Shown here: piece after piece, positions 12,120-60,120 of the stretch | Numbering within the stretch: position 1 is the stretch's first letter | Layout: each line of letters starts with the position of its first letter | Source of the DNA: Sulfobacillus acidophilus DSM 10332 | GTDB lineage: Bacteria; Bacillota; Sulfobacillia; Sulfobacillales; Sulfobacillaceae | Assembly (NCBI GenBank): GCA_000237975.1 | Contig: CP003179.1 | Span: 1,116,001-1,180,000 of the forward strand | Direction of reading: 5' to 3' | Length of the DNA stretch: 64,000 nucleotides | The notes under the pieces: generated by a model | What the model saw: only the letters and a program-made list of their open reading frames with translations | Databases searched by the model: none | Told to the model about the DNA's origin: nothing | Made by a program: the position numbers and the translations under genes

Positions 12120-12200
12120 ATGTCTGTGTGGCGTGTTCCTGCTTCAGTCGCCCAATGGGAAGTGGAACCACGGTTGCGCAACGATGATGACCATGAATGA
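12120..12200 (+). CDS. Possible 26-residue leader peptide
   Basis: The ORF (MSVWRVPASVAQWEVE..., 26 residues) starts after a GTGGGTGG ribosome-like site. Its TGA at 12198 overlaps ATG 12193 of the sigma factor by a few bases. It would couple sigma-factor translation to its own. Its start codon lies in TTTTGCGATG (12113-12122), a perfect 10-nt complement of part of the conserved core of the repeated RNA element. Confidence 0.35.
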   Translation: MSVWRVPASVAQWEVEPRLRNDDDHE

Positions 12201-12828
12201 TTCCAAAGATCCCACGACTTCGACGGGGCCGGGTACGTGGGAGGAAGTCGTTGACCAAGCTCCTCGAATTTTTCGAGCCGCCTTTGCCAAGGCGTGGATG
12301 CGCCAATCGGTCCCAGGCGCTCTAAGAGAGGATGTCCAACAAGAAGCGTGGATTGGCCTGTGGCAGGCTTGGCGGGCCTATGACGCCAGGCAAGGGGCAT
12401 GGGAACCGTGGGCCGTGATGGTTGTTCGGCGGCGGGTCTCAGATTATATCCGCCGCGCTCGGCGGTTCAAACACCATTTTCTGAATGCGGCCTTCTCCTT
12501 GGATCGCGTGATCGATCCCAATGATGCCGATCATCGAACGGGCTATGACTGGATAGGGGGCCGGGACGCTTCGGGTCGAATCGCGTTTGTCGAAGATGCT
12601 GTCTTGGCGAAGGCTATGACCCAATGGCTGGCCCGGCAGATTGTGTTATTGACGCCGCTAGAACGGGCGACGTGGTGTGGGCGGCAAGCGGGCGAGTCTT
12701 TGGACGGGATTGCCCATCGCCTGGGTCGACCGTGGAAATCGGTCGAGAATGCGTGGCAGCGGACGAAACGCAAACTGCGGCAGGCGTGGCGGCAGGAGTG
12801 GGGCGGGGGGGATTTTGACGTTGATTGA
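12193..12828 (+). CDS. Sigma-70 family RNA polymerase sigma factor
   Basis: About 211 residues in the two-domain layout of alternative sigma factors. Region 2 is near residues 35-95 (DVQQEAWIGLWQAWRAYD, then PWAVMVVRRRVSDYIRR, the -10-binding and core-binding helices). Region 4 is near residues 155-200 (LTPLERATW...SLDGIAHRLGRPWKSVENAWQRTKRKL, the -35-binding HTH). An earlier in-frame start at 11983 exists, but its sequence before the palindrome looks non-coding, so I chose ATG 12193. It has no good ribosome site of its own, consistent with coupling to the 26-codon ORF. It is probably an element-specific sigma factor. Confidence 0.75.
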   Translation: MNDSKDPTTSTGPGTWEEVVDQAPRIFRAAFAKAWMRQSVPGALREDVQQEAWIGLWQAWRAYDARQGAWEPWAVMVVRRRVSDYIRRARRFKHHFLNAAFSLDRVIDPNDADHRTGYDWIGGRDASGRIAFVEDAVLAKAMTQWLARQIVLLTPLERATWCGRQAGESLDGIAHRLGRPWKSVENAWQRTKRKLRQAWRQEWGGGDFDVD

Positions 12829-12980: not shown

Positions 12981-13110
12981 TTGACACCGCCCGGCATCGT
13001 CTTTTATGATGGGTCTAGGCGGTTGCGCCCGCTATCTTTCGTATTGCCTCGCTTGGATAATTCCCCGCAAAACCTGCATCGCAAAAAATCCCTTTCTGGG
13101 GTGCATCTTT
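12981..13110 (+). ncRNA. Repeated RNA element, copy 1
   Basis: A promoter (TTGACA 12981-12986, 18-bp spacer, TATGAT 13005-13010) is followed where transcription should start by a hairpin (GCGG/CCGC, 13019-13032), a U-rich linker, TATTG at 13042, and the conserved core with CTGCATCGCAAAAA (block 13069-13090). The 27-nt distance from TATTG to the block is the same in all five copies. The hairpin after the core is weak here. The next gene starts at 13202. The 150 bases between the sigma gene and this promoter show nothing. Confidence 0.75.
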
Positions 13111-14363: not shown

Positions 14364-14453
14364 GGAGCGGTGGCCGAGGGGTTGAAGGCGGCGGTCTTGA
14401 AAACCGCAAGGGTTCAATGGCCCTCGTGGGTTCAAATCCCACCCGCTCCGCCA
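14364..14453 (+). tRNA. tRNA-Ser (anticodon TGA)
   Basis: This is a complete 90-nt class II tRNA. The acceptor GGAGCGG pairs with CCGCTCC, the D-arm is GCCGAGGGGTTGAAGGC, and the anticodon stem GCGGT/ACCGC holds the loop CTTGAAA with anticodon TGA. A long variable arm, the T-arm GTGGG-TTCAAAT-CCCAC and an encoded CCA follow. It decodes UCA. It is not a stop suppressor. A T-run follows. Confidence 0.95.
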
Positions 14454-20551: not shown

Positions 20552-21781
20552 ATGACCTGGTGGGCGGATTGGCAGTCCCACGGAACATTGCAAATCATGT
20601 TTCAACCCATTATTGCGTTAACCGATTTTCACATTGTGGGCTACGAAGTCTTGAGTCGGCCCTATACGGCGGATGGCCAACCGATTCCGGTCGAGGCGTT
20701 TTTTGATGAGGTGGCCCGAAAGGGGCATGCGGTGGTGGTGGATCAACGAGTTTTAACTACGGTGACGGAATTTGTGCGTCATCAGGGATTGGCCCTGACG
20801 ATGCCGTTGTTTTGGAACGTCCACCCCGACTCCATAGCCCACGGGGTATTAACTCAGGCGCGTCGATTTCTCGCGCCGGATCAATTCGTCGTCGAAGTGA
20901 CCGAAAAAGGGGATTGGGGCGATGCCGTCATTCAGGCATTGCGTGAGCATCGCCAGGCCGGGTATCGCATTGCCCTCGATGATTTTGGAGCAGGATATTC
21001 CGGGTTGAACCGGCTCATTCAAATTCAACCCACCATCGTCAAACTCGACCGTTTGCTCATCCAAGGCATTGACCGGGATCCCATCAAACGGCAACTCGTT
21101 CAAGCGGTAACGCAATTGGGGCCGCATTTTGGCTTTCGGGTGTTGGCGGAAGGGGTGGAAACGGCGGACGAACTGGTGACCATTTTGCGGCTACAGGTCG
21201 ATTTGGCCCAAGGCTATTATTTTGCCCGCCCCGCCCTATGGGATCAGATCTCGGCGGAGGATGCCGCCTGGCAACACGCCTTGTTGTCTATTCGGGCGCA
21301 AGAAATTTTGGCGAATCAATGGATGGGACACGATGCTCAGCAGACCTGGCAAACCGCGTGGCCGATTTTGATTCAAGGAGCCTGTTGTCGGTCGGCATCG
21401 GTCGCGTTGGGGGAAATTTTGCGCCGAGCCGAACACGTAACGAGACGGCATTGGCGTGTGGCCCAACGGTCTCCAGCGGGTTGGCGCTTGTGGACTCCAG
21501 ATGGCCCGGCCTGGGCATCGTCGCCCCTGTTGGGTCTTTTAGAGGCCTGGCAACGACATCCCGATCCGCCGAATCCGTGGGTCTGGCAAGACACGACGAC
21601 CTTTTTCGACAAGCCCGGAGCCGCAGCGATCTGGCGTGTTCCCATGCGACCCGATGTGGTGATCGTGGCGTGGACGGGGTGGTTGCATGCGTGGGCATCG
21701 GAATTATTGGCGTGGGGCGAAACATTTAGTCAGCTGGTGGGATTAGTGGGTCAAGCCGAATCCTTGTGGGATCGCGATTAA
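20552..21781 (+). CDS. EAL-domain c-di-GMP phosphodiesterase
   Basis: A 409-residue protein with an N-terminal EAL domain (about residues 10-240). E32 is in the EVL motif, N88 in FWNVHP, E114 in VVEVTE, D142/D143 in DDFGAGYS, K163 in KLD and E199 in EGVET. All main catalytic positions are present, so c-di-GMP hydrolysis is likely. The Trp-rich C-terminal 165 residues are not recognised and may sense a signal. It may work with the GGDEF and second EAL gene near the pilus locus. Promoter 2 of the RNA family overlaps its 3' end. Confidence 0.85.
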   Translation: MTWWADWQSHGTLQIMFQPIIALTDFHIVGYEVLSRPYTADGQPIPVEAFFDEVARKGHAVVVDQRVLTTVTEFVRHQGLALTMPLFWNVHPDSIAHGVLTQARRFLAPDQFVVEVTEKGDWGDAVIQALREHRQAGYRIALDDFGAGYSGLNRLIQIQPTIVKLDRLLIQGIDRDPIKRQLVQAVTQLGPHFGFRVLAEGVETADELVTILRLQVDLAQGYYFARPALWDQISAEDAAWQHALLSIRAQEILANQWMGHDAQQTWQTAWPILIQGACCRSASVALGEILRRAEHVTRRHWRVAQRSPAGWRLWTPDGPAWASSPLLGLLEAWQRHPDPPNPWVWQDTTTFFDKPGAAAIWRVPMRPDVVIVAWTGWLHAWASELLAWGETFSQLVGLVGQAESLWDRD

Positions 21782-21900
21782 GGTGGTAAAATACGATTGT
21801 AGCTCGGAAGCTACTCTTCCTTATTTATTGCCTCCCTGAATGAAAATCCCCCAAAATCTGCATCGCAAAAAATCGGGACCCCGCTCGAAATGATGAGGGA
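21764..21900 (+). ncRNA. Repeated RNA element, copy 2
   Basis: The promoter is TTGTGG (21764-21769), a 17-bp spacer, then TAAAAT (21787-21792). The hairpin is GTAGCT-CGGA-AGCTAC (21799-21814). TATTG at 21826 and the conserved block at 21853-21874 are 27 nt apart. The downstream hairpin is not obvious; a GGG/CCC pair follows the core. The promoter lies inside the last codons of the EAL gene. Confidence 0.75.
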
Positions 21901-21937
21901 TTCTGGTTTTTATTGCTCATGTCGAGGCGATAGTGTC

Positions 21938-25783: not shown

Positions 25784-26047
25784 TTGAGTTTAGCCGAATC
25801 ATTAAGCGGAGCCAAAATTATTCGAGCGGACAAAGAACGGGGATTGTTTTTGGCCTGGTTTGGCGGGCATGGTCTCCACGCTTATGATGCACAGGGCCAA
25901 GAAGTGGCGTTTTGGAATATCGGGGATTCAGCTACCGATGATGCTTCGGAAGCCGACGTGTTGGACGATATGGAAGAAAAGATTCAGACAGGGAAGTATC
26001 CGTGGGCGTATGACGAATGGTGGGAAAAATATCCGTGGACCAATTAA
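25784..26047 (+). CDS. Hypothetical acidic protein
   Basis: About 87 residues from TTG 25784, which has GGAG eight bases upstream. An in-frame ATG at 25730 lacks a usable ribosome site. The sequence (IRADKERGLFLAWFGGHGLHAYDAQGQEV) is typical of small actinobacterial/Firmicute phage proteins without known function. The C-terminus is rich in Trp and Asp/Glu. Confidence 0.5.
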   Translation: MSLAESLSGAKIIRADKERGLFLAWFGGHGLHAYDAQGQEVAFWNIGDSATDDASEADVLDDMEEKIQTGKYPWAYDEWWEKYPWTN

Positions 26048-28479: not shown

Positions 28480-28746
28480 GTGGCCTCAAGGGAACCCAGT
28501 GAACAACGGGTCAACCGGTGGCGTCGGCAACTCACCCGTTGGCGGTGGGCCGTCGATGGGCTGTCCCGTCGGCGGGTCCGATTGTATCCTGCGCCCCCCG
28601 TTTTGGGGCGTTCCGTACAATTTTTTGTCGAGTGCCGGGAAGACCGGCAATTAGTGTGGAGCCACGGTCCGTGGTCGCTGGACACCGCGATTGCGGCGGC
28701 GATTGAGTTTTTGCAAAACCCAAATCTTGACGATTTGGAACGCTGA
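28480..28746 (+). CDS. Hypothetical basic protein
   Basis: 88 residues, basic at the N-terminus (EQRVNRWRRQLTRWRW, then LSRRRVRLYPAPP), with a helical acidic end. TAGGAG precedes GTG 28480. The -35 element of RNA-element promoter 3 lies within its last codons. Confidence 0.5.
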   Translation: MASREPSEQRVNRWRRQLTRWRWAVDGLSRRRVRLYPAPPVLGRSVQFFVECREDRQLVWSHGPWSLDTAIAAAIEFLQNPNLDDLER

Positions 28747-28858
28747 TTGTATCGTAGAAATAGGCAGAACGTCCTGCCACGGATTTTTTATTGTCTGGAC
28801 GATTGAAACAGGGTCAAAACCTGCATCGCAAAAATTCCTCATCCAATTGGATGAGGAA
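28727..28858 (+). ncRNA. Repeated RNA element, copy 3
   Basis: The promoter is TTGACG (28727-28732), 17 bp, TATCGT (28750-28755). The hairpin is GGCAG/CTGCC (28763-28778). TATTG at 28789 is 27 nt before the conserved block 28816-28837 (with CTGCATCGCAAAAA). Then TTCCTCATCC and GGATGAGGAA form a perfect 10-bp stem, which starts inside the block's last bases; no T-run follows. Transcription probably continues to 29092. Confidence 0.78.
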
Positions 28859-39582: not shown

Positions 39583-40935
39583 ATGATCTCGTGGCGTCGG
39601 CGATCTGTCTACTGGACGGAACAACGATTGCGGCGTACCCAATGGACCTTTTGGGGTATTTTAGCCGTGGTCCTTGTCGGCATCAGTGGATGGCTGGTTC
39701 AAATGACCAGCATGATGTGGACGTGGCCGGCCCAAATTCCGGCCCAGGCCACGGCAGCGTTGCAGACGACGCTGGTGCGTTGGTTTGAAGGGGGCGGCAT
39801 CGCCGCCTGGGAACGGCATGGCATCCCGGCGTGGACGCCGTTGTCCTTCAACGCGCGGCGCGTGGTCATTCCGGCGATTTCTCTTCAATCAGCGATGGCG
39901 TCCACCATGCCCAATATGTCATCCCTGTCGAACCTGTCGGGGATGTCCAGCCCCCCGTTAGTGACCTCGAAGAACGGGATGACGGGCCGGGCGATCTCGT
40001 CCTCGGTCATGCCCACGATGTCGTCGCGGACGCCGCCCCCGTTGAGTCATAGGCCCATGCCCGCACCATCCCCGATTGAATGGCAGGCAGTTCCTCCGGT
40101 TCCGCCGATTTTTCAGGGATGGTGGACAGGATCGTGGCCGCAAAACCACGGCTCGGTCACCGCATGGCTCCGCCGGGCCTGGACGACACACCGCCCCCAA
40201 ACGTGGGTCACCGGTCGGCAAGTCGGCATCGCCTGGCCTATTCGGGTTCACGGACGCTGGCAGGTGTATCTGGCGCAAACTTCCTTGCGCCCGTGGGTCG
40301 TAGCCGCGAACGCCAATAATCGCTTTCTGTTTTGGTATACCGCGGGAGAGTTTGCGACCGTCGCGGTCATTTTGGCTTTCCTCTATTGGGGCATTGAGCG
40401 ATGGGTCATTCGCCCCATTCGCTGGCAGGCCCAGCGCGATTTGATGACCAGTCTCTACAACCAAATCACGTTTTGGGAATTGGCGGAACAATTGGCCGCC
40501 CGCGCGGCTGCTACACACACGCCCTTAAGTGTCTTAGCCCTCGACATGGATCGGTTTAAATCGGTCAACGATACCTACGGCCATCAAGTCGGGGATCTGG
40601 CGCTAAAAACCTTGGCCGAAGCCATTTTAACCAATATTCGCGAATCGGATTTACCGGGGCGGATTGGGGGCGAAGAGTTTGCGGTCGTGTTGCCGCAGAC
40701 CGCCTGGCGCGATGCGAAGATTGTCGCCGAGCGGATTCGTGTGACGTTGGAAAATACCCCGGTGGATCCGATTACGCATCCATTAACTGTGAGCATCGGA
40801 GTTAGCGCGTTGGGCGAAGGCGAGGACGTGCGCAGTTTGATGAAACGGGCTGACCAAGCCTTGTATCAAGCCAAAGATCAAGGCCGCAACCGCGTCGTGG
40901 TCATTTCGCCGCCCGCCGTATCCGAAATGGCTTAA
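39583..40935 (+). CDS. Membrane diguanylate cyclase (GGDEF)
   Basis: 450 residues. Two membrane helices (residues about 22-45 and 250-270) enclose a periplasm-side sensor region rich in Pro/Met/Ser. A C-terminal GGDEF domain holds the DMDRFKSVNDTYGH motif near 327 and active-site GGEEF at 362-366. The inhibitory I-site RxxD is present as RESD at 353-356, five residues before GGEEF. It makes c-di-GMP, with product feedback. It lies two genes upstream of an EAL protein and the pilus genes, so it probably controls them. Confidence 0.9.
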   Translation: MISWRRRSVYWTEQRLRRTQWTFWGILAVVLVGISGWLVQMTSMMWTWPAQIPAQATAALQTTLVRWFEGGGIAAWERHGIPAWTPLSFNARRVVIPAISLQSAMASTMPNMSSLSNLSGMSSPPLVTSKNGMTGRAISSSVMPTMSSRTPPPLSHRPMPAPSPIEWQAVPPVPPIFQGWWTGSWPQNHGSVTAWLRRAWTTHRPQTWVTGRQVGIAWPIRVHGRWQVYLAQTSLRPWVVAANANNRFLFWYTAGEFATVAVILAFLYWGIERWVIRPIRWQAQRDLMTSLYNQITFWELAEQLAARAAATHTPLSVLALDMDRFKSVNDTYGHQVGDLALKTLAEAILTNIRESDLPGRIGGEEFAVVLPQTAWRDAKIVAERIRVTLENTPVDPITHPLTVSIGVSALGEGEDVRSLMKRADQALYQAKDQGRNRVVVISPPAVSEMA

Positions 40936-40948
40936 GGGGGGCGACATA

Positions 40949-41602
40949 ATGCCCGGTACATCCTCGCGAGCTCGTCGATGGACGCGGATTGGTGAATGGG
41001 TGGGGGCAGGGGTGATTGCCTATGGATTTCTTCACGCCGCCCTCGTGACGGGCATTGACGGGCGGACTATCGCGATGCTCGCAGATCGTCCAGCCTATCT
41101 CAACGCGATAATTTATCTCATTTGGCAAGGCTTGGCTTTGAGGGGATGGGTTTACGGTCACTGGCATTCTCGCGCTGTCGCGGCTCCCATTGGGGGCATC
41201 GGCGTGGCCTTAGTGGATACGGGCTTTTATTTGGTGGCGAACTGGATTGTGGGGCCTCTGCATCCGTGGCGGTGGGGGCCAACGGTGTCGCTCCTGGGGA
41301 ATGATCTGGTGATCCTGGGCATGGTGGTAACCGCCGGATGGGGGATCTGGGCCTTTCGGACGTTGGGGCGCGAATTTAGTGTGACGCCTGTTCCGCCTAC
41401 ACACCGGGTGACAACGGGGCCTTATCGCTGGGTTGCACATCCTATCTATACTGCGTATGCGGTGCAAAACGGCTTCATGGTGGTGTGTTATCCCTCGTGG
41501 GGGAGTCTGGGGCTGTATGCCCTGTGGTTGGGCCTCGTGGGATGGCGAATCCGGTGGGAAAATCGCATTCTACAATCGATCACGAAGGAGCGAACGGCAT
41601 GA
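40949..41602 (+). CDS. ICMT/PEMT-like membrane methyltransferase
   Basis: 217 residues with about five membrane segments. The C-terminal pattern TTGPYRWVAHPIYTAYAV, then RWENRILQ, fits the isoprenylcysteine/phospholipid methyltransferase family (GPYr.vRHP.Y.. and E..L). It would methylate a lipid or lipid-linked substrate using SAM. Between the GGDEF and EAL genes, it could modify pilus or membrane components. It overlaps the EAL gene by four bases. Confidence 0.7.
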   Translation: MPGTSSRARRWTRIGEWVGAGVIAYGFLHAALVTGIDGRTIAMLADRPAYLNAIIYLIWQGLALRGWVYGHWHSRAVAAPIGGIGVALVDTGFYLVANWIVGPLHPWRWGPTVSLLGNDLVILGMVVTAGWGIWAFRTLGREFSVTPVPPTHRVTTGPYRWVAHPIYTAYAVQNGFMVVCYPSWGSLGLYALWLGLVGWRIRWENRILQSITKERTA

Positions 41603-42300
41603 AAATCACCTTTTGGCAACAGCCCATCTATGCCACGGCCACGCATCAGATTGTCGGGGTCGAATGGCTCACGCGGCGGGAGGGCGAGGAGACAGCGGCG
41701 GAATTGTGGCGATGGGCGGCGGAACATCACGCGATTGCGACCTTGGAACGCTGGATTCTGGACCATTTAGTCCAATGGCGGTTCGCACCGGCCGACACTG
41801 ATTCCTCATTGGTCTGGTTCATCAATTTGCATCCCCAAGGCGTTGTCCGCGAGGTGCTACAGGATATCGTGGAATGGAAGGATCGGCAACACCGTTTGGC
41901 TCCTGTCGTGTGGGAATTGTTGGAAAGTGACGGATGGACCCCCGACGTGATTACGCGCCTGACCCAAGCGCATAGTGTCCTCGCGCTCGATGATTGGGGC
42001 AACCATCGGGATACGACGAATCGATTAGTAACATGGCCGGTCCAATGGGTGAAACTCGATGCCCGTTTAGTGCAGCAATTGCCCCATCCCGCGATGCGGC
42101 AATGGGTGGAAACCCTGCATACCTATCATATGCACCAGCACAAATATCTTGTCGCGGAAGGCGTGGAAACGCCCGAACAATGGCAGATTGTGCAACAATT
42201 GGGGATTCCCTATTGCCAAGGCTTTGCGCTCGCAATGCCCCAGCCCTTTCGGACGGTCGAGTGGCCGGACCCCTCTGCTAATGTTCTGATGGTTGATTAA
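41599..42300 (+). CDS. EAL-like domain protein, partly degenerate
   Basis: 233 residues, a stand-alone EAL domain. Conserved positions are present as EWLTR (E of EAL), INLHP (N), WELLE (E), DDWGNHRD in place of the usual DDFGxG, KLD (K) and EGVET (E). Because the DDFG loop is altered, it may be a c-di-GMP sensor rather than an active enzyme. It is coupled to the preceding gene and immediately upstream of the pilus ATPases. Confidence 0.7.
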   Translation: MKITFWQQPIYATATHQIVGVEWLTRREGEETAAELWRWAAEHHAIATLERWILDHLVQWRFAPADTDSSLVWFINLHPQGVVREVLQDIVEWKDRQHRLAPVVWELLESDGWTPDVITRLTQAHSVLALDDWGNHRDTTNRLVTWPVQWVKLDARLVQQLPHPAMRQWVETLHTYHMHQHKYLVAEGVETPEQWQIVQQLGIPYCQGFALAMPQPFRTVEWPDPSANVLMVD

Positions 42301-42346: not shown

Positions 42347-43750
42347 ATGGCTTGGCATGTCCTGATTGCCATTGATGCCGAACAGAACGCCGATTTCGTG
42401 ACGTGGGCCGAACGGTATCGCACGGACGGCGTGCTCAGTATTCAAACGGCATCCTCAGCCCCCGAAGTTATAACCCAGTTAAATCACCTCACGGGGGCCG
42501 TTGTTATCCTGGCGTCCTCGGCCCTGCCGGAGTTAACTCAATGGGCCAAAACCTGGGTCGCGATGGGCAAAGCCCGGTCGGATCCGACACGCTGTGTCGT
42601 CTTAGCGGATGGCACACCGGACGGGGTTCCGGGACCATTAGGGAGTTTAGCGGACATTCCCGAATTTTTGGCCTGGGCCACAGTGGTCGAAGGCACGGTG
42701 CCCCCGGATAACCCGCAAATCGTAGAATATGATTTTGATCAATTGGCCCGGCTGGTCTTATCTCCGGGGAACGGGCCAGAAACCCTGTCATCCTCGGCCC
42801 CGCCCCTTGAACCGCCCACGACAAAATCCCCCGCCCCGTCGCCTTCTCGGTTAGGGTGGTTCCGATCTCGGAAGTCCCAGCAGCCCATCGCGAACTCGGC
42901 TCAAAAATCGGTCCCGTCCGTGACAGAGCGGCCCCGATCTCCCCGCCCATCCCCGCGGCAGATCGCCAGTCAACGGCCTCCGGAATTGCTGGTGGTCATG
43001 GGCGGAAAGGGCGGAGTGGGCAAAACCTTTTTGACCGCGAGTCTGATTGGGTCGGCGGCTCAACAATGGGGCGGTGTAGTTGGGTTGGATATGGATTATT
43101 TCAAACCCAATTTGGCGCTGTATTTTTGGCCGGAAACGGACCAAGGACCGGATTTGGGCGAACTCTTCCAACAATGGGAGATCGCGCAATCCTCGGGGGT
43201 CACGACCGCCGACGCGCAACGGCGGTTGGTCGAACAATGGTTGGCTCACATCCCTCGCCTGGCCCAGGGCATGACCATTGTTCCCGGCCCTCACCGGGAC
43301 ACCGCCGGGGCCTTATTGCCCCCGATGGGGATGCCCGATACCTTGCTCACATGGGCCTTAGAACGGCGGGAGGCGACGGTCATTGTGGACACGGCCCCGA
43401 CGTTAGACGAAGCGGCCCTGCAAGCGGCGCGGTTGGCGGAAAAACGGGGACGGATTCTCCTCGTCACTACCCCGGAATGGGACGCCTTGCTAGAAACTGA
43501 CCGCATTGGTCGCCAACTCCGGGATTATTGGGGCATCGCCCCTGACTGTATGGGGGTCGTGGTGAATTATCGCGCTCAAAAAGGGGGGGTCAGCTTAGAT
43601 GACATTCGGGGAACGCATTTAGCGTCGTGGCCGGTCTGGGGGGTCATCCCGTATGTGCCACGGATTGCCCAGGTCGCCCTCACTCGGCATCATCCCCCGG
43701 CCTTGGAGCGCGACCGGGCGATCCAGAATTTATGGCGAGTGTTACTTTAA
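42347..43750 (+). CDS. TadZ/CpaE-like pilus localisation ATPase
   Basis: 467 residues. An N-terminal receiver-like domain (to about 150) and a Pro/Ser-rich linker precede a MinD/ParA-type ATPase with deviant Walker A GGKGGVGKT (about 219-227), the LDMDYFKPNLAL strand and VIVDTAPTLDEAAL (Walker B). CpaE/TadZ positions the Tad secretion machine at the pole. The next gene, CpaF, supports this. AAAGGAG is upstream. Confidence 0.85.
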   Translation: MAWHVLIAIDAEQNADFVTWAERYRTDGVLSIQTASSAPEVITQLNHLTGAVVILASSALPELTQWAKTWVAMGKARSDPTRCVVLADGTPDGVPGPLGSLADIPEFLAWATVVEGTVPPDNPQIVEYDFDQLARLVLSPGNGPETLSSSAPPLEPPTTKSPAPSPSRLGWFRSRKSQQPIANSAQKSVPSVTERPRSPRPSPRQIASQRPPELLVVMGGKGGVGKTFLTASLIGSAAQQWGGVVGLDMDYFKPNLALYFWPETDQGPDLGELFQQWEIAQSSGVTTADAQRRLVEQWLAHIPRLAQGMTIVPGPHRDTAGALLPPMGMPDTLLTWALERREATVIVDTAPTLDEAALQAARLAEKRGRILLVTTPEWDALLETDRIGRQLRDYWGIAPDCMGVVVNYRAQKGGVSLDDIRGTHLASWPVWGVIPYVPRIAQVALTRHHPPALERDRAIQNLWRVLL

Positions 43751-43770
43751 TTTTATAAGGAGGGATTCGG

Positions 43771-45054
43771 ATGTCGAATCGGGATGCGTTGTATTCCTAT
43801 GTCGAATCGAGTCAAGCGGTGGGGGCGCTCCGTCGCCCTCGCGTGGCTCCGTCCAGTTTGGAAGATCAATTATGGAAATGGTTGCAGGAACACAAATCCG
43901 ACGTGTTAACCCATCGGGAATCCTTGCCGATGGATGTGGTGCGGGAAGCGGTCATCCAAGGGATTGCGACGCTGAACGCCAGTCCCGATCAACGCCAATG
44001 GCTGTTGCAACGGGTGCTCAATCGGTTGTTAGGCGCCGGGATTTTGGAACCGTGGATGCAAGATCCCGCTATTACGGAAATTATGATGACCGGGACGAAA
44101 ATTCGGATTGAACGAGACGGGCGGTACGAAACGGTCCATAAACTCTCCAGTGCCACCGAAGCCATCCAATTGGCGGATTTTCTGTGCTCTCGGGCTGACG
44201 CCCGCTATCAACCCACCATACCGTACCAAACGCTCATTTGGCCGTCGAATGGCGCTCGCATGAACGTGGTGCATCACTATTACACCGGCAACGATGGCCC
44301 GGTCATTACCATTCGGAAGCGCAACCAAACCGCCCAGTTGGATATCCAAGATCTCATTGACCGGGGCATGTTGAACGAAGAGATGGCGGAATGGCTGATC
44401 CAGGTGCTCCGAGCGAAGGCCAACGCCATTCTCGCCGGGCCGACGGGAACGGGAAAAACGACCGTCCTGCGAGCGCTGGCCCAAGCGGCCATTCCCCGGT
44501 TTGAACGGGTCATTACCATCGAAGACATTGACGAACTGCAAATGACGGATGCGTTTGAGGATTGTGTCAGTCTGGTCGGCAGTGACAAGGCCGACAACGA
44601 ATTGGGGATTGAAGTCTCCATTCACCAACTGTTTCTTAATGCCCTGCGGATGCGCCCGGACCGGATTATCATCGGGGAGGTGCGGGGCAAAGAAGCGAAA
44701 GACGTGTTGGAAGTGGGCGTCACCGAAGCCGGAGGCATGTTGCTCACCGTTCACCTAAAAAACCCGTCCGAACTCTTTATGCGGATTCAATGGATGCTGT
44801 TAGACGGCGGGTACACCTTTCCCGTGGATTATGTGCGGGAACAAGTGATATCTGCGTTTGATCTGGTGATTCAAATTGCTCGGCCCGCCGATGCCAACGG
44901 ACAACTCCACCGGCGGATTGTGGAAATTTCCGAACTCACCGAGGACAAACAGATCCGACCGATTTTTCAGTGGACAGGCGCGGATTGGGAACAAGTCAAT
45001 GCCCCGACCGACAAAATTCAACGGCTCTTTCGGCAATATGGGACCTTGCGATAA
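43771..45054 (+). CDS. CpaF/TadA secretion ATPase
   Basis: 427 residues of a type II/IV secretion ATPase, TadA/CpaF subfamily. Walker A GPTGTGKTT is near residue 223, the Asp box ITIEDIDELQM near 250, Walker B PDRIIIGEVRG near 300 and the His box ITEAGGMLLTVH-type near 318. It hydrolyses ATP in the cytoplasm to drive Flp/Tad pilus assembly or retraction. AAGGAGGG precedes it. Confidence 0.92.
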   Translation: MSNRDALYSYVESSQAVGALRRPRVAPSSLEDQLWKWLQEHKSDVLTHRESLPMDVVREAVIQGIATLNASPDQRQWLLQRVLNRLLGAGILEPWMQDPAITEIMMTGTKIRIERDGRYETVHKLSSATEAIQLADFLCSRADARYQPTIPYQTLIWPSNGARMNVVHHYYTGNDGPVITIRKRNQTAQLDIQDLIDRGMLNEEMAEWLIQVLRAKANAILAGPTGTGKTTVLRALAQAAIPRFERVITIEDIDELQMTDAFEDCVSLVGSDKADNELGIEVSIHQLFLNALRMRPDRIIIGEVRGKEAKDVLEVGVTEAGGMLLTVHLKNPSELFMRIQWMLLDGGYTFPVDYVREQVISAFDLVIQIARPADANGQLHRRIVEISELTEDKQIRPIFQWTGADWEQVNAPTDKIQRLFRQYGTLR

Positions 45055-45075
45055 GGGGCCAAGGAGGACGGACAC

Positions 45076-45981
45076 ATGGCATCTGTGGTAGGGGCCATCA
45101 TCCTGGCCCTTAGCTTGGGGCTTTTCGGATGGTCGGTGGGGGAAACCGTGGGTCTTCGGGGAGGAGTCCGGTGGATTCCCCCTCAACCGGCGATGTCCGA
45201 CACTCAATGGGATATTGGCCCCACCTTGTCTCCGGGCGTGTGGACGGCTCTTTGGGCGGGGAGCATCGGCCTTACGGCAATTCTGGTTTGGCGATGGACC
45301 GGCAACGTCCCGATGACGATGTTGTACGGGTGGGCCGGACAAAGCATTCCGGGAGCCATCCTGACCACCATGCGACGGCGGCGGTTGCGGGTGTTGGATA
45401 CCCAAGCGTATGTGATGGCGAATAGCCTCCGCACGTTGTTGCCGGTCGCCAACAACTTGGAACACGCGGTGCAATTGTTGGTCTCGAATCTGGATGCCCC
45501 CCTGCGCCCGCTGGTGACGCGGGCGTTAGCCAGCGAAGCGGAGCAAAGCGGGCAAATGGTGGAACAACTCCGCCAAGCCGGGCGAGCGTTGGGCTTAGCG
45601 GACCTGGAACTCATGGCGGATATTTTGCAACAAATCCGATCCCAAACCTATCATGCCCTGCCGTTGCTCACGCGCCTGGTGGAATTGTGGGGGGAACGCT
45701 TGCAGCAAGAGGCGCGGCGGGCCGGAAAAATTACGGGCAGTTTCCGCTTGGCGTCTGCGTTGCTCCTGGTGTCCATCGGGGTGCAACTGGGATGGCCGGC
45801 ACTCTCTCCCAGTGCTCACGCCGCCTTATCGTCGATCATCGGTCAAGTGGCCGGCGGGTTCGGGGCGGGGGTCACGATGGTCGCGTGGACGGTGTATCAA
45901 CGCACACAAAATACGGCGCTGAATCCCGCAAAGGCTCCCTCCCGCAAATCGCGCCGAACTTCCCGAACCGTGTCGATTTAA
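45076..45981 (+). CDS. TadB-like inner-membrane platform protein
   Basis: 301 residues with two N-terminal and two C-terminal membrane segments around a cytoplasmic helical T2SSF-type region (LRTLLPVANNLEHAVQLLV, then EQSGQMVEQLRQAGRALGL). It matches TadB of Tad pilus systems, the membrane platform that CpaF drives. AAGGAGG is upstream. Confidence 0.8.
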   Translation: MASVVGAIILALSLGLFGWSVGETVGLRGGVRWIPPQPAMSDTQWDIGPTLSPGVWTALWAGSIGLTAILVWRWTGNVPMTMLYGWAGQSIPGAILTTMRRRRLRVLDTQAYVMANSLRTLLPVANNLEHAVQLLVSNLDAPLRPLVTRALASEAEQSGQMVEQLRQAGRALGLADLELMADILQQIRSQTYHALPLLTRLVELWGERLQQEARRAGKITGSFRLASALLLVSIGVQLGWPALSPSAHAALSSIIGQVAGGFGAGVTMVAWTVYQRTQNTALNPAKAPSRKSRRTSRTVSI

Positions 45982-46005
45982 CACAAAGTGGAAGAGGGTG
46001 GAACT

Positions 46006-46383
46006 ATGTGGGCGTCCTATATCCAAGCGTGGAAACACTATGCCGTTTTTGAGGGCCGGGTAGATCGCAAGACTTTTTGGGAATTTTTTCTGATCACCAG
46101 TCTCGTGAAGATGGTGGCTTGGGTCTGGAGTATTAAGCTGTTCATGCTTTATGCGCTGGTGTCGCTGTTTCCGCAAATGGGGATGGAGATTCGGCGGCTG
46201 CACGACACCAATCGATCCGGGTGGTGGCTCCTCATCGATCTCGTACCGTTGGCGGGCATTATCGCCTTGATTGTGTGGTGGGCACAACCGGGGATGACGG
46301 GGGCGAATCGCTATGGCCCGCCGCCTACCCCAGGTGGACTGTTATCTTCCGACGTGGCTCCGTCGTTGCCACCGGAAATTTAG
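46006..46383 (+). CDS. DUF805 membrane protein
   Basis: 125 residues: MWASYIQAWKHYAVFEGRVD RKTFWEF... is the DUF805 start (W....F.G..sRk.FW.f.l), and RRLHDTNRSGWWLLIDLVPL is its conserved RLhDt..SGWw motif. There are about three membrane helices. DUF805 proteins have no known enzyme activity. It lies between tadB and tadC, an uncommon place. Confidence 0.85.
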   Translation: MWASYIQAWKHYAVFEGRVDRKTFWEFFLITSLVKMVAWVWSIKLFMLYALVSLFPQMGMEIRRLHDTNRSGWWLLIDLVPLAGIIALIVWWAQPGMTGANRYGPPPTPGGLLSSDVAPSLPPEI

Positions 46384-46393
46384 GGAGGGTGTC

Positions 46394-47212
46394 ATGACCG
46401 CGTTAGATCTCTTGGGTCATATCAGTTTGTTGGGGGGATTGGCCGCCGCCGGCTGGTGGGCGGCCCCCCGCCCCCGGCCCCGATCCTGGTGGGCATCGCA
46501 AGGGGATGCCCGATATCGTCAGGCGTTGCAGTGGCTTTGGCAACGCCTGACCGCGCAAGCAACCCGGCAAGCGGCCGAGGTGATGGGGCTGAATGGCCCT
46601 CGGCTCATCGGTCTATTATTGGGAGGCGGCGTCTTCGCCTTTTTGTGGCTCGTGGGATTATTTCGGGTGGCGTGGCCGCTGGCTCTCGGCATCGTCGGCG
46701 TCGGAGTGCTGCTGATTCCCAATCGGTGGATAGCCCGTCGCTATGCTCGGTGGCAAACTCGCCTCGCGGCCGGGCTGTCGGGGTTGGCAAATCGTCTGAT
46801 GATTTTATTTGACTTAGGACGCCCGTTGTTAGGGGCGCTGAAACAAGCCGCCCCGCAAACGCCGTCGCCTCTGAAAAACGAACTCTACCGGGTCATTGCC
46901 CGATTAGAAGAAGGATGGCCGGTCGATCAAGCGTTGCAGGGGATGGACGCTCGGGCGCATCGCATGGAAGTGACCACGTTTGCCACCACCTTGTCCTTAA
47001 GTACCGGACGTCGGTTGACGAGCGAGACGTTGGTTCCGCTGACCACGATGCTGGCTAGTCAACACCTGCAAACCCAAGAGCAACTCACCGGATCCGCAGA
47101 ACAAGTGGCGTCCACCATTCCCATCTTAGCCTTTTTCGGCTTGATGATTGTGGGCCTCACCATTTTACTCATCCAATCGTTCAGCGGCTTCGGGGGTCTT
47201 AGCGGGTTATAA
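46394..47212 (+). CDS. TadC-like inner-membrane platform protein
   Basis: 272 residues with paired membrane helices near residues 75-115 and 240-262, and a T2SSF-like cytoplasmic segment (LANRLMILFDLGRPLLGAL, then FATTLSLSTGRRLTSET). TadC is the second platform protein of Tad pili. AGGGAGGG precedes ATG 46394. Only nine bases after its stop the promoter of RNA element 4 begins. Confidence 0.75.
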   Translation: MTALDLLGHISLLGGLAAAGWWAAPRPRPRSWWASQGDARYRQALQWLWQRLTAQATRQAAEVMGLNGPRLIGLLLGGGVFAFLWLVGLFRVAWPLALGIVGVGVLLIPNRWIARRYARWQTRLAAGLSGLANRLMILFDLGRPLLGALKQAAPQTPSPLKNELYRVIARLEEGWPVDQALQGMDARAHRMEVTTFATTLSLSTGRRLTSETLVPLTTMLASQHLQTQEQLTGSAEQVASTIPILAFFGLMIVGLTILLIQSFSGFGGLSGL

Positions 47213-47220
47213 GGTGTTTG

Positions 47221-47366
47221 TTGACAGTCCGTTTAGGACGCGAGTACAATAGAGGCAGGTTTTGGGATCGAAACCCGTTCTTTCGTTTTGCGTTGCTCGG
47301 GGAAAACGACTGAAAATCTGCATCGCAAAAATTCCGGTGACCGTTGGGGTCATCGGAATTTTTTTG
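47221..47366 (+). ncRNA. Repeated RNA element, copy 4
   Basis: The promoter is TTGACA (47221-47226), 18 bp, TACAAT (47245-47250). The hairpin is GGTTT/AAACC (47258-47275). TTTTG at 47286 is 27 nt before the conserved block 47313-47334. The block runs straight into a strong terminator: ATTCCG.TGACC pairs with GGTCAtCGGAAT and seven T residues follow (to 47366). This defines a discrete transcript of roughly 110 nt. TTTTGCG at 47286 is also complementary to CGCAAAA of the core. Confidence 0.85.
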
Positions 47367-47395
47367 TTGGCTTTTGTATAAGGAAGGGATTCGTT

Positions 47396-47545
47396 ATGCC
47401 CCGTAGAAGGTCACTCCGAATTGGTTCGGTCGTGAGTCAGGCCCCGTTTATCCTGGGAGGGTTAATTCTCCTCGCCGTGATGGGATTGATCCAACCCCCG
47501 ATGCCGCCGCACTGGATTGCGCCGGGTCCGATCCTCATCGCATGA
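47396..47545 (+). CDS. Small single-TM protein
   Basis: 49 residues with a basic N-terminus (MPRRRSLRIG) and one membrane helix (APFILGGLILLAVMGLI). AAGGAAGGG precedes it. It is the first gene after RNA element 4 and may be a small pilus accessory. Confidence 0.5.
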   Translation: MPRRRSLRIGSVVSQAPFILGGLILLAVMGLIQPPMPPHWIAPGPILIA

Positions 47546-47550
47546 TGCCC

Positions 47551-47583
47551 ATCCCGCGTCAAAATACGCGGGGTGTTTTTTTG
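47551..47583 (+). terminator. Intrinsic terminator
   Basis: CCCGCGT and ACGCGGG pair around AAAAT and are followed by GTG and seven T residues. It separates the 49-residue gene from the following ones. Confidence 0.85.
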
Positions 47584-47595
47584 AGGTGGTTCATT

Positions 47596-54574: not shown

Positions 54575-54717
54575 TTGCGAAGCCCCCCCGCCCGGCGTAT
54601 AATGAGGATAGCTTGCGACGGCAAGTGTTGTTTTGTATTGCTATCCCCGCCCCAAACGGCTTAAAACCTGCATCGCAAAAAATCCGAGATGCCTCGTGCG
54701 AGGCGTTTTCTTTTTTT
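54575..54717 (+). ncRNA. Repeated RNA element, copy 5
   Basis: The promoter is TTGCGA (54575-54580), 17 bp, TATAAT (54598-54603). The hairpin is CTTGC-GACG-GCAAG (54612-54625). TATTG at 54636 is 27 nt before the conserved block 54663-54684. A terminator follows at once: GCCTCG-TG-CGAGGC (54691-54704) and a T-rich tract to 54717, whose TTTTTTGC can also pair with GCAAAAAA of the core. The cpaB-like gene starts 16 bases later. Confidence 0.85.
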
Positions 54718-54732
54718 GCGAGGTGGTTTGTT

Positions 54733-58013: not shown

Positions 58014-58079
58014 AGAACGTCGTCTTTGTTGGATGTTAAGTTCGCCTCGCTCTTTGCCACGAAGCCTCCCATCCTTGCT

Positions 58080-58104
58080 GCCGGAGTATCTCCGGCGGTT
58101 TTTT
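58080..58104 (+). terminator. Intrinsic terminator
   Basis: GCCGGAG and CTCCGGC pair around TAT and are followed by GGTTTTTTG. Confidence 0.9.
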
Positions 58105-58122
58105 GTCGAGAGGGGCGAGGTC

Positions 58123-59004: not shown

Positions 59005-60120
59005 ATGCGCTGCCGCGTCCATCAATCCGATATGGTCCAAGCGATCCAACACGTTAGTCGCCTCATCCCCGCGCATCCCGCGCATCCGGCATTTGCGAAT
59101 ATCGAATGGACGGCAGATGCCACGCAAGGCCATCTGGTGTTCCGGGCTACCGATGGTGTAATAGAAATTCAGCGGCGCATCCCGGCCCACGTGGATGAAG
59201 CCGGAACGGTAACGGTATCGGCCCGCTTCGCCGTTGACCTCATCACCCGCTTGCCCGATGGCGAAATCACAATTCGCCAACCCACGCCGGATGCAGTCCG
59301 ATTAGAATTTGCGAGGAACTATGTCCGGCTACAAACTGTCTCCGAGGCGATTCCCCAATGGCCCCTCGAGTCTGACGCGACCGCCGGAATGGACGCAACG
59401 GAATGGCCAATCGGAACCGCCGGCCGATGGATGCGTCAATTAGCGTTTGCCGTAGCAACCGATGCCACTCGCCCTGTCTTGCAGGGGATATATATTCAGG
59501 CAACGCCCGACGCTTGGATGGCGGCGGCCACCGATGGCGCTCGCATTTCTTGGCTAGAACAACCGTGTAGCGGACCGCCAACGCCTCGGTCGGCTATTTG
59601 GCCGGTGAAGGTTTTGCGGGAACTCGCCACCCTCAACGAGGACGCGCCACTGATCCTACGGTGGTACGCCCAGAGCCTCAAAGCCGCGACGGATACGGCG
59701 TTCATCCGAACGCGGTTTTTGGAAGGCACTTTCCCCAATGTTCAAGCGGTCCGTCCGACAACGGTTGTGGTGGAAGGCACGACGGACATGGCCCATTTGC
59801 GGGCCGCGGTGGATCGTGCGGCGGTTATTGCCTCGCAACACCCCGGATTGCCTGCCGTTGAGATTGAACATCAAGCATCGCAGTTAATTGTGCGATCGGT
59901 CACGGACACCGGCGAAGCGTGGGAGGCTGTGCCGTGCGTGAGCCAAGGCCCCCGCATGGCTCTGCGAGTTAATCCTCGGCTCGTGCTGGATGCCCTTCGG
60001 TCTTTCACTGGCGATACGGTTCAATTTGCCTGGTCGGGATTGCAAACGCCGCTCGTCTGGCAAAGCCCTGCCGATCCCGGATATGTCCACTGGATGTTGC
60101 CGCTGCGAGTCCTCGAATAG
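59005..60120 (+). CDS. DNA polymerase III beta sliding clamp homologue
   Basis: 371 residues, full length for DnaN. Three repeats of the clamp fold are suggested by FRATDGVIEIQRRI (domain 1), FAVATDATRPVLQGI and AATDGARISWL (domain 2), then LEGTFPN (domain boundary) and the ending YVHWMLPLRVLE in place of the usual Y..MPMR. Clamp proteins tether polymerase to DNA. A plasmid-borne clamp is uncommon and implies that the element brings part of its own replisome. AAGGAGG precedes the ATG. Confidence 0.88.
   Translation: MRCRVHQSDMVQAIQHVSRLIPAHPAHPAFANIEWTADATQGHLVFRATDGVIEIQRRIPAHVDEAGTVTVSARFAVDLITRLPDGEITIRQPTPDAVRLEFARNYVRLQTVSEAIPQWPLESDATAGMDATEWPIGTAGRWMRQLAFAVATDATRPVLQGIYIQATPDAWMAAATDGARISWLEQPCSGPPTPRSAIWPVKVLRELATLNEDAPLILRWYAQSLKAATDTAFIRTRFLEGTFPNVQAVRPTTVVVEGTTDMAHLRAAVDRAAVIASQHPGLPAVEIEHQASQLIVRSVTDTGEAWEAVPCVSQGPRMALRVNPRLVLDALRSFTGDTVQFAWSGLQTPLVWQSPADPGYVHWMLPLRVLE

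Follow-up and report, generated by a model that had tools for sequence, protein, structure and literature searches.

In the 64,000-nucleotide window analysed here (C1:1116001-1180000 of Sulfobacillus acidophilus DSM 10332, or G000; window coordinates count from 1), a short leader element recurs at the starts of gene blocks of an integrative and conjugative element (ICE). We give a probability of about one half to the reading that each copy of this leader is a promoter-proximal loading site for terminator read-through, that is, for processive antitermination on the ICE. The leaders probably let RNA polymerase pass the many stop signals that lie inside the gene blocks. This reading draws on an anatomy common to all seven copies, with an exact spacing of 27 nucleotides (nt) and a random linker, on strong promoters, on a diverged core in two related ICEs that stands before terminators and follows gene direction, on an enrichment of ICE terminators that leave no room for a promoter, and on precedents on conjugative elements, namely conAn (PMC8955417) and canT of Tn916 (PMC11658703). 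The sequence itself gives the layout of the leader, its sevenfold occurrence, its homologues in two related ICEs and, as predictions, the internal terminators; gene expression, read-through, its processivity and the leader as its cause are what we infer.

The leader and its seven copies

The core of the leader, CTGCATCGCAAAAA (in extended form AAAAYCTGCATCGCAAAAAWTC), is found at window positions 13074, 21858, 28821, 47318 and 54668, always on the + strand; with up to two mismatches allowed, these five matches compare with 0.58 expected in the window. Two further copies lie beyond it, at C1:1115965 and 1188067, and genome-wide the total is seven, all on the + strand, all within the 104.9-kb ICE and spread over 72 kb. 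The copies are numbered 0 to 6 along the chromosome. Copies 4 and 5 are the same as those of an earlier note on this DNA, which had been made for the span 47221-47366, corresponding to copy 4 only; the first repeat search was confined to 40-56 kb and revealed just these two copies.

All seven copies follow a common layout, consisting of a sigma-A-type promoter, a hairpin at about +1, a T(A/T)TTG box, a linker of 22 nt and the core. Promoters, hairpins and terminators are predictions throughout, while the anatomy, counts, statistics and homologues are computed. The distance from the box to CTGCATCGC is exactly 27 nt (7/7 copies), of which the first 22 nt are unconserved and the last five read AAAAY. 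Compared with other sigma-A-like sites between genes on the + strand of the ICE, all seven promoters are on the stronger side, and each copy heads a gene block of the same direction. The 5' hairpin near the expected transcript start has a different sequence in every copy; jointly, though not individually, these hairpins are more stable than dinucleotide shuffles (combined p ~0.001). The stretch from TATTG to the core shows no structure beyond that of shuffled sequence (p = 0.12).

In copy 4, the promoter TTGACA-18-TACAAT, of sigma-A type (47221..47250, + strand, as are all the copies described here), is followed by the hairpin GGTTTTGGGATCGAAACC near the expected transcript start (47258..47275), the box, here TTTTG, 27 nt 5' of CTGCATCGC (47286..47290), the core AAAATCTGCATCGCAAAAATTC (47313..47334), and an intrinsic terminator (47327..47367) whose 5' side is the A tract of the core, just as the earlier note had described it. 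Copy 5 has a promoter TTGCGA-17-TATAAT (54575..54603), a hairpin GCTTGC-GACG-GCAAGT (54611..54626), a TATTG box (54636..54640), the core AAAACCTGCATCGCAAAAAATC (54663..54684), and an intrinsic terminator in which GCAAAAAA is paired with TTTTTTGC (54676..54719), a complementarity that had likewise been pointed out before. Copy 1 (12981..13090) comprises a promoter TTGACA-18-TATGAT, a hairpin at 13018-13033, TATTG at 13042-13046 and the core at 13069-13090. In copy 2 (21764..21912) the promoter is TTGTGG-17-TAAAAT, with the hairpin at 21799-21814, TATTG at 21826-21830, the core at 21853-21874 and a weak terminator that extends to about 21912. Copy 3 (28727..28837) has a promoter TTGACG-17-TATCGT, a hairpin at 28763-28778, TATTG at 28789-28793 and the core at 28816-28837; hairpins that lack a good T tract come after it.

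The earlier note held that in copies 4 and 5 the core runs straight into a hairpin and T tract. This is indeed seen, and a clear terminator comes immediately after the core in copy 0 as well, and a weak one in copy 2. The direct arrangement does not hold for copies 1, 3 and 6. In copies 3 and 6, strong hairpins come 160-195 nt farther downstream, but their T tracts are poor, and copy 1 has a complete core without any adjacent terminator, which fits an action at a distance. The pilus genes that the note placed near copies 4 and 5 are there, and are of the Tad type.

At the gathering threshold, Rfam covariance models found only a tRNA in the window, and a permissive search with copy 4 (E up to 10) returned no meaningful match. 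An open reading frame through the core, taken by eye from the TTG of TATTG, meets stop codons in the linker of copies 0, 2 and 5 (3/7), which speaks against a leader-peptide attenuator.

Terminators inside the gene blocks

A terminator scan of the ICE gave about 20 good terminator-like intergenic sites on the + strand and one on the - strand, the latter within a gene. Of the 120 co-directional gene pairs counted in the ICE, 18 have a terminator between their members, versus 14 of 345 in the host chromosome (Fisher p = 1.4e-4), and those with the next start codon at most 35 nt away number 7 in the ICE versus 4 in the host (p = 0.008). The host baseline is 483 kb of host DNA, with gene calling and scanning identical to those used for the ICE. 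Several intra-operon terminators lie 5-35 nt 5' of a start codon, for example CGCGGGGTGTTTTTTTGAGGTGGTTCATTATG at 1163576 and CCGGCGGTTTTTTGTCGAGAGGGGCGAGGTCATG at 1174100. The gap is too short for a promoter, and any expression of genes in such positions would therefore require read-through. On the + strand of the window, the intra-operon terminator at 47541..47587 is 20 nt from the next start codon, with the Shine-Dalgarno sequence directly behind the T tract, and the one at 58076..58105 is 23 nt from the next start codon. The early operon beside the LexA-like repressor (1106.5-1115.3 kb) lacks the element, and its one terminator is at its end; internal terminators begin at the first element of the ICE, copy 0.

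Related ICEs

A search with the transfer ATPase of the ICE led to related elements in G016, G029 and G017. The regions in G016 and G029 share the order of Tad and type IV secretion genes. In the G029 region, a count of 13-mers that made no use of the S. acidophilus core has at its top the reverse complement of AAACCGGCATCCC, which differs from AAACCTGCATCGC in 2 of 13 letters. In these two ICEs the full motif is approximately GTGYNMAAAAMCCGCAAAAAACCGGCATCCC, and we give the diverged homologue as CAAAACCGCAAAAAACCGGCATCCC. It sits at promoters, 57-88 nt behind the -10 box and usually after a hairpin, and nearly always a terminator comes next that includes or abuts the motif. Its orientation is that of the genes, on both strands, and in two G016 copies it is doubled in tandem. 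The leaders of G016 and G029 have no TATTG box; common to them and to those of G000 are the promoter, the hairpin and an A-rich GCATC core. A polar DNA-translocation signal for an FtsK-like ATPase was rejected on these grounds: the copies are one-way in S. acidophilus, but in G016 and G029 they lie at promoters, in gene direction and on both strands.

Among 154 genomes of the class, the G016/G029 motif was not found beyond those two genomes and one chance-like single match, and among 398 genomes of the phylum the core of S. acidophilus was not found beyond its own genome and one chance-like match. Matches examined from pattern scans of IMG/VR were due to chance and lacked the promoter-hairpin-terminator anatomy; scans of GTDB r220 with the TATTG-core pattern and the VirB4-like protein gave no locus, and searches of plasmid and phage DNA gave no meaningful match.

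Explanations for the repeated leader

For a loading site, events could be as follows. Transcription would begin at the sigma-A promoter, and the nascent RNA would form the 5' hairpin, with the T(A/T)TTG box next and the A-rich GCATC core exactly 22 unconserved nt later. The leader, or a factor reading it on the RNA or on an exposed DNA strand, would then make RNA polymerase terminator-resistant; the conversion may be achieved by the leader RNA alone (as in HK022 put) or together with a protein (as in conAn). A polymerase loaded in this way would pass the terminator behind the core, where one is present, and then further terminators within the gene block, and spurious or incoming host transcription would not be loaded and would stop. 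With seven sites distributed over 72 kb, polymerase would be loaded anew at intervals along the ICE. As is general for antitermination, the element is in cis near the start of a transcription unit and points in the transcribed direction, both in the seven copies and in G016/G029. Internal terminators that would need read-through are predicted in the S. acidophilus ICE and are not enriched in the other two.

Several points weigh against this reading. Its main weakness is that the excess of terminators is absent in the related ICEs, where 4/109 (G016) and 8/102 (G029) co-directional pairs have one, approximately the host level; moreover, several of those counted are the terminators directly behind the elements. 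Within the S. acidophilus ICE, there is no internal terminator in the upstream Tad gene block (1152-1163 kb) or in the transfer genes at 1176-1187 kb, and the host baseline too has a few terminators near start codons. The counts depend on the gene caller and terminator scanner of this analysis, and some start codons are uncertain, such as the one at 1149308. Motif order and spacing differ between the G000 and the G016/G029 leaders.

Some of these facts would suit a local attenuator, in which the core binds an RNA-binding protein (of the ICE or the host), a ligand or a small RNA, and acts on the adjacent terminator only, so that binding would open or shut the operon, with no processivity. Nearly every copy in G016 and G029 stands directly before a terminator, with the core inside or next to its 5' arm, which fits this explanation equally well; copies 0, 4 and 5 of S. 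acidophilus are built likewise, and the lack of an excess of other internal terminators in G016/G029 speaks for it and against a loading site. However, copies 1, 3 and 6 have a perfect core without a terminator directly behind it, no antiterminator helix that competes with the terminator was found, and the terminators deeper in the operons would be left unexplained. We regard local attenuation as a serious but rather unlikely account. The earlier note had proposed a different local device, a switch in which the linker and the T tract of the terminator are alternative partners of the core. Its subject, termination control, was well chosen, as the element lies between promoter and terminator, is repeated at the starts of gene blocks and has relatives built alike. 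The complementarities exist too: in copy 4, TTTTGCG matches CGCAAAA, giving 7 bp at a cost of only 1.4 kcal/mol. As for the TTGY of the linker, said to pair with GCAA of the core in every copy, TTG followed by C or T does occur at a fixed place 27 nt before CTGCATCGC (7/7), but the pairing has no support from covariation; the 4-bp match exists because the two motifs are nearly invariant, and for the same reason covariation cannot speak for a pairing. A choice of the core between termination and antitermination through these pairings is not supported. Forcing the linker to pair with the core leaves the terminator stem of copies 4 and 5 in place, with a loss of the A-tract:T-tract extension only; the two pairings do not exclude the stem. 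Across the seven copies, this constraint adds between 1.4 kcal/mol (copy 4) and 11.8 kcal/mol (copy 5) to the total energy. The linker is random in sequence though fixed in length, the region is not structured beyond chance, and copies 1, 3 and 6 have no adjacent terminator for their perfect core to switch. A switch of this kind is very improbable, the least probable of the explanations considered here.

Two other explanations leave termination aside. Bipartite recognition of DNA typically shows such an exact spacing, here 27 nt, across a random linker, and the two boxes could be a second promoter for the SigH-like sigma factor of the ICE, or a site for another DNA-binding protein. The ICE does encode a sigma-70 family protein that most resembles SigH models (window 12184-12828, + strand, a short way 5' of copy 1), with a homologue of 31% identity in the G029 region. 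Yet in copies 0, 4 and 5 a transcript that starts at or behind the core would meet the terminator at once, TATTG is missing from the G016/G029 leaders, no homologue of the sigma factor was found in the G016 region, the 5' hairpin would be unexplained, and the core is conserved far above usual promoters. This makes a DNA signal improbable. Still less credit goes to a family of paralogous small RNAs, where each unit would give a stable RNA of about 100 nt with the A-rich core as a seed for targets elsewhere. Copies 0, 4 and 5 and the majority of those in G016/G029 are indeed compact units of promoter, conserved unpaired core and terminator, but every copy heads a co-directional gene block and tracks gene direction in the other ICEs, a terminator is not close by in copies 1, 3 and 6, a sevenfold redundancy would be strange, and there is no Rfam match.

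Comparison with known systems

The element appears to work like put, conAn or canT, yet we place it in no named family, and it is set apart from conAn and canT by their descriptions. In pLS20 and its relatives, a large Gram-positive conjugation operon with many internal terminators has a processive antitermination system, conAn (the ConAn1 protein and conAn2 RNA), at its start (PMC8955417), a situation similar to the one proposed here; by description, the difference is that our ICE holds seven sites and that no ConAn1-like protein was identified in this analysis. The canT region of the ICE Tn916 is cis-acting, probably as RNA, is processive and works on terminators of the element as well as foreign ones; like our leader it is ICE-borne and downstream of the main promoter (PMC11658703). 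However, canT is described as a single region, a 452-nt fragment with a complex predicted fold that is used after excision, whereas the leader described here, again compared by description, is about 75 nt with one hairpin, and is repeated. HK022 putL and putR are leader RNAs of about 70 nt that convert RNA polymerase, putL just downstream of a promoter (PMC9378689). They need no dedicated protein and consist of two stem-loops; our leader has one significant 5' hairpin and an unpaired conserved core, the part from TATTG to the core being unstructured beyond chance.

Among factor-dependent systems, LoaP with its dfn hairpin shares a small leader hairpin, a leader terminator and further operon terminators, and is also found in Bacillota (PMC12691694). 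LoaP, however, is a NusG paralogue, and the single NusG (PF02357) match in the S. acidophilus genome is outside the ICE, which does not fit the LoaP/RfaH type. Antitermination through NusB/NusE and boxA does not fit either, the leaders being without boxA: they deviate from its consensus at 4 or more of 12 positions, and the GGTCCTTGAAAAC motif seen in the rrn leaders of S. acidophilus DSM 10332 is missing from the element. In lambdoid Q/qut, a late promoter is followed by a terminator and polymerase is modified near the promoter (PMC6606751), but the DNA site of Q lies between -35 and -10, and Q binds it at a sigma-dependent pause, while here the conserved boxes are in the transcribed region; no Q protein was matched among ten proteins searched in PHROGs.

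Given the diverged version in related elements, the leader looks like an undescribed branch of a known type of control. More tentatively, and with somewhat more doubt than confidence, we suggest that the leader, about 75 nt long and repeated up to seven times per ICE, is an antitermination module not described before. It would reload polymerase at each gene block through a new RNA or factor that is related to none of NusG, N, Q and put, and it is so far confined to ICEs of Sulfobacillus and relatives.

The ICE and its genes

The S. acidophilus DSM 10332 genome has a chromosome of 3,472,898 bp and a plasmid of 84,933 bp, which are the published sizes (PMC3558970). The ICE (about 104.9 kb, C1:1103248-1208208) contains the window entirely. 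Its ends are a perfect 64-bp direct repeat (attL/attR, at C1:1103248 and 1208145); the left repeat overlaps the 3' end of the tRNA-SeC gene, and at the right end a tyrosine recombinase gene (1206857-1208029) adjoins the att repeat. Inside the element are genes of Tad-type pili and of replication type, as well as those of a VirB4-like and an FtsK/TraD-like ATPase; the + strand carries nearly all of them.

There are two separate Tad-like sets in this one ICE, at window 42347-47212 and, near the right end, at C1:1192883-1197989. Proteins with EAL domains are encoded at window 20552-21781 and 41599-42300, and the product of 39583-40935 is GGDEF-like by sequence appearance (all on the + strand). 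Two of these three genes adjoin pilus genes, which suggests that the ICE pilus is under cyclic di-GMP control. Other genes of the + strand encode a homologue of DNA polymerase III beta, the sliding clamp (window 59005-60120), a tRNA-Ser (TGA) inside the ICE (14364-14453), and a RadD-like helicase with an intein C-terminal splicing motif (L046:9554-11629). An acidic protein of 87 amino acids (window 25784-26047, + strand) is conserved across all three related ICEs. It belongs to no Pfam or PHROGs family, and there is no reason to assign it the role of a trans factor for the leader.

Significance

Descriptions of processive antitermination on conjugative elements are only recent (conAn, PMC8955417; canT, PMC11658703). 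The leader of S. acidophilus is compact, and natural variation already shows which of its nucleotides are essential; its repeated sites would allow a direct test of whether polymerase needs reloading over a distance of about 100 kb. If the reading as a loading site is true, it would suggest that mobile elements have invented antitermination control repeatedly, in this case as a multi-copy, short and sequence-conserved version in a thermoacidophile, with a diverged homologue in the two related ICEs.
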